The notes under the pieces were generated by a model, which saw nothing but the letters and a program-made list of their open reading frames with translations, had not been told where the DNA came from and did no database searches. This document shows positions 16,100 through 50,095 of a stretch of 64,000 nt of DNA, in pieces. Positions within the stretch are counted from its first letter, which is position 1, and the number at the start of each line of letters is the position of its first letter. This DNA comes from Aquimixticola soesokkakensis (lineage in GTDB: Bacteria > Pseudomonadota > Alphaproteobacteria > Rhodobacterales > Rhodobacteraceae): contig NZ_FWFS01000005.1 in the NCBI RefSeq assembly GCF_900172375.1, positions 1-64,000 of the forward strand, given 5' to 3'. The position numbers and the translations under genes were made by a program.

Positions 16100-16721
16100 G
16101 ATCGTCCTGTGGATTTAAGTGACTTTGCAGCGTCTCTATCACGTGGGCCAAGGACTGTCAGGCGGATTTGGATCAATCGGTGGTGATCTGCTGATCCGCC
16201 TTTGGCGGGGGGGCTTTGGCGCGGCTGTGCGGGAGCCGTTTGTGCACCAAGCGCTTGTGGTGGAACAAAAAAAAATGGTGGTGACATGAAAAAAGGACCG
16301 CAAAAACGCGATCCTTTTTTACATTTTTATTCCCTGTCAGACTTGGCTGATCTGTTATTCTCCAGACGCTAGACGAAGACAAAAAGGCCGTCAACAGCCC
16401 ACATTACATTTGTGCGACAGCGCCCGTGCAGTGCGCGGCAGCCGGTCTGATGTGCAAAATAATTCAGCAGTTTATGCGGCGTGAGTGTGGCCTGTCGCGC
16501 TGCGGCCCGCGCGGGTTGTGGGGCGCGGGTTATGCGGCGTCCTTTGGGCAAAAAAAACCGCGCGCTCCGATGAGCAACGCGGCCAGTCTGACAGGGAGGA
16601 AGTCAATCCAGATCGAAGAGGAGGACGATCTGGACAGGTTCACACTGGCACAAAAGGGTTAATTTTGTATTGTCGCGGGGAACCGGTGGTGAACTTAAAG
16701 AGAACGGGAGTGTCGGGCGCG
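16100..16721. other. 622-base gene-free region between ialB and the HerA-like gene
   Basis: No convincing gene is present. Short frames here (for example 30 residues from 16570) have no ribosome site or recognisable content. The region contains a terminator-like hairpin at 16288-16321 that belongs to neither neighbour, AT-rich DNA at about 16260-16350, and GC-rich DNA with GCGCGGGTT-type repeats at 16500-16560. Both flanking genes are transcribed away from it, so it holds two promoters and perhaps a small RNA. Confidence 0.5.
16288..16321. terminator. Orphan terminator-like hairpin
   Basis: A 13-bp stem with one mismatch (AAAAAAGGACCGC/GCGATCCTTTTTT) and a loop of AAAAAC is flanked by A and T runs. 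It could end transcription in either direction, but both adjacent protein genes are transcribed away from it. Confidence 0.7.
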
Positions 16722-45398: not shown

Positions 45399-49630
<4,232 letters not shown>

Positions 49631-49735
49631 GTCATTTCACATCCAGAAAGATTGCTGTTTCGCGCCTGTTTTTTGACAGGGCGGCAGCGATGCTCTGGCA
49701 CGATGTTCTCCTGTTTTTTACATTTGTTCACGAAT

Positions 49736-49750
49736 GTTCTCATAAAGTTC
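49736..49750 (+). promoter_or_regulatory. LexA/SOS box (GTTC-N7-GTTC)
   Basis: GTTCTCATAAAGTTC is an exact match to the alphaproteobacterial LexA consensus GTTC-N7-GTTC. Further GTTC half sites lie at 49705 and 49726, GAAC at 49774 and 49795, and the 10-bp arms TGTTCTCATA (49735-49744) and TATGAGAACA (49769-49778) form an inverted repeat. It is 76 bases before the 40-residue gene at 49826. Confidence 0.7.
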
Positions 49751-49825
49751 TTTACTCAAAGGTTAAGATATGAGAACAAAGGGTCAACAAGAGAGAACGA
49801 CAGCTTAGCCAGACAGGAGGCTCCT

Positions 49826-49948
49826 ATGGTCCATGACATCAAAACTGCCTTTAAACGGTCGCGTAGCACGCTTGCTCAGGATTTTTTGGGGGCAGCATCG
49901 CTTTTGGTTATTCTGGTGGGCGGCCTCTACGTCCCGGGAATGCTTTAG
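49826..49948 (+). CDS. 40-residue membrane protein, probably SOS-controlled
   Basis: The ATG follows CAGGAGG at good spacing and encodes MVHDIKTAFKRSRSTLAQDF and then LGAASLLVILVGGLYVPGML. The layout is a 17-residue basic amphipathic start followed by one membrane helix that ends at the C-terminus. A terminator follows at 50063, so this is a complete transcription unit after an SOS box. SOS-induced micro-membrane proteins are known cell-division inhibitors in Caulobacter (SidA); the sequence similarity to them is not evident, so the function is inference. I recall similar short proteins in relatives. Confidence 0.7.
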   Translation: MVHDIKTAFKRSRSTLAQDFLGAASLLVILVGGLYVPGML

Positions 49949-50062
49949 CTTCTCTCTTTTCGCGTTTCTGCCTGCGTTTGGTATCGGTTCGCCCTTGTCC
50001 CCGAGGGTCCTGCATATTGCTTGTTCCCGTGAGTATGCCCTGAACCGGTAAAAACGTCACTT

Positions 50063-50095
50063 CTGCCGCCTCTTCGGAGCGCGGCAGTTTTTTTA
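50063..50095. terminator. Bidirectional terminator
   Basis: A 7-bp stem CTGCCGC/GCGGCAG with a hairpin-forming loop is followed by T7. It ends the 40-residue gene and overlaps the stop codon of the convergent receptor gene. Confidence 0.85.

Follow-up and report, generated by a model that had tools for sequence, protein, structure and literature searches.

SidA of Caulobacter, a protein of 29 residues, acts on FtsW, and a second Caulobacter inhibitor, DidA, acts on FtsN and is damage-induced but not LexA-controlled (PMC4211646). YneA uses its membrane helix to bind FtsW, on which low-confidence models also place SosA, ChiZ and SidA (PMC13396833). The operator motif of the alphaproteobacterial SOS response is established as well, the LexA box being GTTC-N7-GTTC (PMC12700426, PMC3323433). 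In the literature that we searched, no DNA-damage division inhibitor of Rhodobacteraceae was found. Members of this family are among the most abundant bacteria in the sea and in soil.

Here we describe a 40-codon gene located in a stretch of 64,000 nucleotides from Aquimixticola soesokkakensis (contig NZ_FWFS01000005.1, positions 1 to 64,000; hereafter the window). A sequence-only reading of the window had pointed to an SOS box and an array of half-sites in front of this frame, and had proposed a separate damage-induced division checkpoint or membrane effector in Rhodobacteraceae. Our comparison across the family suggests that the gene, which is single, precisely placed and near-universal, is the strongest candidate to date for the DNA-damage division brake still to be found in Rhodobacteraceae.

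Results

The small gene (MVHDIKTAFKRSRSTLAQDFLGAASLLVILVGGLYVPGML) occupies positions 49826-49948 on the forward strand, with a ribosome-binding site, AGGAGG, at 49815-49820, five bases 5' of the ATG. A single-sequence search with the 40-residue frame matched 24 of 61 genomes, all of them Rhodobacteraceae, and an HMM profile built from these 24 members found the gene in 356 of 398 Rhodobacteraceae genomes, corresponding to 319 of 353 genera. This frequency (89%) is a lower bound, since divergent copies escape the profile: in at least two genomes without a match (G023 and G081) and in one with a weak match (G030), the same operator is followed by a divergent copy. The same profile gave no convincing match in approximately 380 alphaproteobacterial genomes outside the family, where four partial matches, all of them weak (E 1e-4 to 8e-3), look like chance. 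Codon-position entropy (1.22, 0.78 and 1.59 for positions 1, 2 and 3) follows the pattern expected of coding DNA, and pN/pS was 0.27 over 23 close pairs, with pN below pS in every one of them. Judged by these substitution patterns, the frame is a true gene under purifying selection.

The position of the gene is equally constant. It directly follows recG (47540-49630, forward strand, outside the unit) on the same strand in 151 of 152 distinct loci, so that the conserved frame after recG, on which the sequence-only reading had staked its proposal, is indeed found in relatives. The lone exception (L022) lacks recG on the upstream side but retains the NifU-like and hisI genes, which also lie downstream of the small gene in the window. 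Since L022 keeps the small gene without recG, the gene forms a separate unit and does not belong to a recG operon. In the Paracoccus-type loci L174, L236 and L295 (the latter from G023) the N-terminal half is shortened and very different while the operator and the D-x-x-G helix are kept, and the N-terminal half of the protein may thus be dispensable.

Downstream, an intrinsic terminator at 50063-50094 (forward strand) consists of a 10-bp stem closed by a UUCG loop and followed by seven U. A simple terminator consensus scan of the locus returned nothing; folding instead revealed the hairpin (-17.7 kcal/mol, z -5.0) and bears out the terminator that had been read from the letters. A hairpin with a T-run follows the small gene in 144 of 149 loci, a figure that comes without a random control. 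By this arrangement the gene is monocistronic, with its own terminator and no linked partner gene.

The protein had no match beyond chance in Pfam, NCBIfam, PHROGs or PDB, and when Pfam was run on the 24 family members no model was significant, PF03846 (SulA domain) included. A mobile or phage origin was considered and rejected, with no plasmid or phage match. No publication on the gene was found in the open-access literature searched, which is no proof of absence. Genes of such extreme shortness are easily overlooked in annotation, and this one has no family model.

The letters on which the sequence-only reading relied (the exact box, the half-sites, the inverted arms, the ribosome-binding site and the 40-codon frame) are all present. 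The box, GTTCTCATAAAGTTC, lies at 49736-49750 on the forward strand and is an exact copy of the alphaproteobacterial motif GTTC-N7-GTTC. It was found upstream of the small gene in all 52 loci that had been selected by protein alone, for a chance expectation of 0.2% per 140 bp. A conserved second box, opposed to the first, had been overlooked at 49774-49788; it reads GAAC-N7-CAAC, or GTTG-N7-GTTC on the minus strand, and by its letters comes close to a perfect LexA box. Each of the 52 protein-selected loci has a GAAC-N7-NAAC that starts 37-39 bp downstream of the first base of box 1, and in several genomes (e.g. G367, G113, G318, G406, G074, G345 and G147) this second box is a perfect GAAC-N7-GAAC. 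The 10-bp inverted arms, TGTTCTCATA at 49735-49744 and TATGAGAACA at 49769-49778, follow from the opposed orientation of the two boxes.

The array of half-sites (GTTC starting at 49705, 49726, 49736 and 49747; GAAC starting at 49774 and 49795) survives in part. An extra GTTC at 49726-49729 (forward strand), 6 bp before box 1 in the arrangement GTTC-N6-GTTC-N7-GTTC, is present in 47 of the 52 loci and conserved at 86-93% per base over 148 loci, and the GAAC at 49774 belongs to box 2. In contrast, conservation is seen neither for the GTTC at 49705 nor for the GAAC at 49795, nor for the 21-bp spacing; they were rejected as parts of the operator and are probably due to chance.

When the two-box pattern was used as a query, 300 of 398 genomes contained it, usually with one match per genome, whereas the reversed control gave about 2. 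In all 110 pattern-selected loci the profile matched, weakly in a few of them, a frame lying 38 to 131 bp downstream. Among DNA of 84,980 species there were at least 80 matches, and all 80 of the matches listed, which do not amount to an exhaustive specificity test, belonged to Rhodobacteraceae or to unclassified alphaproteobacterial bins. The operator consensus is tttGTTCnCaaATGTTCTcAaAAAGTTCTTTACa-N11-atATGAGAACAAAgnggCAACAaa, in which GTTC, GAAC and some neighbouring letters are partly fixed by locus selection, the 52 protein-selected loci providing the unbiased count. The boxes keep a fixed distance, and the letters between them vary freely (0.24 bit per base), as would be expected for a rigid promoter on which both sites are bound.

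Exact boxes were not significantly frequent in the window (5 versus 2.1 expected), nor were they enriched in the organism's own genome (85 versus 141 for the reversed control pattern), and for this reason conservation and not number was used as evidence. The window supplies a built-in negative control in the HerA-like ATPase gene (PF05872; 16722-18284, forward strand), which has a triple GAAC-N7-GAAC-N7-GAAC at 16680-16705, 17 bp before it. The box pair of this gene is conserved in none of 29 relatives, and represents either recent SOS recruitment or chance.

A putative promoter fits between and into the boxes. A -35-like TTTACT (49751-49756, forward strand) directly follows box 1, with TTTAC or TTGAC in 45 of the 52 loci, and 17 bp further an extended -10-like element, TGn-GAACAA (49771-49779, forward strand), would run into box 2; the TG just before box 2 is found in 50 of the 52 protein-selected loci and GAACAA is conserved. 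A simple sigma-70 consensus scan recognised no promoter at the locus, and the putative -10, GAACAA, is non-consensus and far from TATAAT. If these elements are used as we infer, the promoter would be masked at either end.

The lexA gene of the same genome (G000:C12:88299) has three GAAC-N7-GAAC upstream, the same type of box is found ahead of lexA in 29 of the 30 loci of relatives, and it also occurs before recA in the organism's own genome. The own lexA (L148) displays four GAAC half-sites in 11-bp steps, i.e. three overlapping boxes, just after TTGACA, and the lexA genes of relatives mostly have one or two boxes. Elsewhere in the own genome (L056, L057, L063 and L069), exact boxes are located near uvrA, a UvrD/PcrA-like helicase gene and radA, and before recA; from these boxes the genes are likely SOS genes.

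The small gene was absent from 7 of 13 genomes in which LexA was not detected, compared to 35 of 385 genomes with LexA (Fisher p 1e-4). This result is supportive only, since close relatives are not independent and some genomes are fragmented bins; when the apparently LexA-less genomes were rechecked, G013 and G072 did have LexA and several others were fragmented bins. G163 is a nearly complete, 3-contig genome that carries both the small gene and the two-box pattern, and neither a Pfam model nor a protein search found LexA in it. Taken from motif and conservation, LexA control of the small gene is very likely. The description of the locus as encoding a LexA-controlled small membrane protein of Rhodobacteraceae accordingly finds strong support in the comparison of genomes, with frame, box and place all conserved. 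Two conditions set to refute the sequence-only reading, lack of a conserved frame and lack of a conserved box in relatives, do not hold.

AlphaFold models the protein as a single helix spanning residues 2-39 (pLDDT 84.5). The hydrophobic stretch covers residues 16-40, the N-terminal part is net positive, and positions 20-40 are devoid of charged residues in each of 110 forty-residue members; from the charge distribution an N-in topology is expected. The product is thus predicted to be a single-helix inner-membrane protein with its N-terminus inside. A fold search with the predicted structure was uninformative, the structure being a single helix only. Conservation is concentrated in a stripe along one helix face: D19 (99%), G22 (100%), L26 (96%), L30 (86%), L34 (98%) and P37 (93%). 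The conservation moment at 100 degrees exceeded that of 98.9% of shuffles (p 0.011). The stripe suggests helix-to-helix binding to a membrane partner, but it could equally serve self-dimerisation.

Discussion

We lean towards the view that the small protein, once induced in the SOS response, inhibits septal wall synthesis at the FtsW/FtsI/FtsN complex in a manner analogous to SidA. SOS-controlled small membrane proteins that are retained as core genes are mostly division inhibitors. SulA was not found in any of 61 genomes of relatives, and as far as SulA is concerned the post of division inhibitor is therefore vacant. It is for these two reasons together that an inhibitor of septal wall synthesis is preferred.

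According to this hypothesis the gene by itself would make up an SOS unit. As long as cells are healthy, both opposed boxes would be occupied by dimers of LexA, flanking and covering the promoter, with box 1 against the -35 and box 2 over the -10 and the start, and the gene would be shut very tightly. RecA-driven cleavage of LexA would open it upon damage. The protein of about 40 residues would then enter the inner membrane, leaving its basic N-terminus on the inner side. Through its conserved face (D19, G22, L26, L30, L34, P37) it would pack against a membrane-spanning helix of another protein, for which FtsW or one of its neighbours in the septal peptidoglycan synthase is the likeliest candidate. 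Division would consequently be delayed until the DNA is repaired. The separate division checkpoint of the sequence-only reading may then exist, an inference from the SidA/YneA/SosA kind of protein, the absence of SulA and the conserved helix face. Whether it amounts to an ancestral SOS checkpoint that Rhodobacteraceae have as their own, with a near-universal family of mini-proteins, a two-box LexA clamp that each genome has at essentially this gene only, and septum synthesis stopped via one helix face, we regard as an even bet.

A less probable, though still credible, alternative is that the protein is an SOS-induced small membrane regulator with another target, i.e. a transporter, a membrane protease, a respiratory complex, a kinase such as CckA or the DNA-uptake machinery, which would be tuned during repair. 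The conserved stripe fits any helix-to-helix partner. However, the best-known single-helix SOS proteins encoded by core genes are division inhibitors, and a monocistronic gene with its own terminator offers no linked partner gene that would indicate such a target. The kinase variant gains from the report that LexA reaches CtrA/CckA-linked traits in Rhodobacteraceae (PMC6473078).

It is rather improbable that the gene encodes a membrane toxin of the TisB/DinQ type, which would depolarise the membrane and put damaged cells to sleep, even if the probable LexA control, the small size, the basic N-terminus, the one helix and the very tight operator would all suit such a toxin. The leader is short, unconserved (mean 0.15 bit per base) and not unusually structured (z-score +1.4), and nothing in it points to a type I antitoxin RNA; nor did Rfam yield a convincing match, the one hit being a chance match to mir-1305 (E 0.73). 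These tests should be interpreted with some caution insofar as an unconserved antisense RNA would escape leader conservation, folding and Rfam alike. The distribution of the gene, near-universal, syntenic and mostly single-copy in Rhodobacteraceae, also differs from that of toxin-antitoxin loci, which are patchy, and the lack of any charged residue at positions 20-40 in the 110 forty-residue members speaks against a toxin as well.

We consider it very unlikely that a regulator other than LexA, likewise recognising GTTC repeats, reads the operator. The extra GTTC at 6-bp spacing and the persistence of pattern and gene in G163 would be in keeping with such a regulator, but the motif is identical to the LexA box known from alphaproteobacteria (PMC12700426, PMC3323433) and also to that of lexA itself, and genomes without detected LexA more often lack the small gene. 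Finally, chance boxes before a meaningless open frame, a reading to which the lack of box enrichment in the own genome might seem to lend itself, are refuted, since over 300 genera keep the frame, the boxes and their spacing, whereas the window's other exact tandem box, that of the HerA-like gene, is conserved in 0 of 29 relatives.

Two opposed boxes on one promoter with fixed spacing across hundreds of genera would also provide a natural model of tight LexA repression.

Compared with known systems, the small protein would resemble SulA of Escherichia coli in being, by hypothesis, an SOS-induced division inhibitor, but the two proteins show no similarity, and SulA is a soluble inhibitor of FtsZ. 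With TisB and DinQ of E. coli it shares the nature of a hydrophobic mini-protein under probable LexA control; TisB and DinQ belong to the type I toxins and are paired with an antisense RNA, whereas the small gene is a syntenic core gene with no conserved leader or RNA. Like the Gram-positive SOS membrane division inhibitors YneA, SosA and ChiZ, it has a single predicted membrane helix and is, from its operator, putatively SOS-induced, but these proteins carry an extracytoplasmic extension (LysM in YneA and ChiZ, an extended helix in SosA), while the small protein ends right after the helix. The closest likeness we draw is to SidA of Caulobacter crescentus, which is SOS-induced and binds FtsW; it is a likeness in way of working, drawn by analogy rather than from sequence homology. 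Both would be very small inner-membrane proteins under alphaproteobacterial LexA control, and the small protein is set apart from SidA by its 40 residues, its two opposed LexA boxes and its D-x-x-G-led helix.
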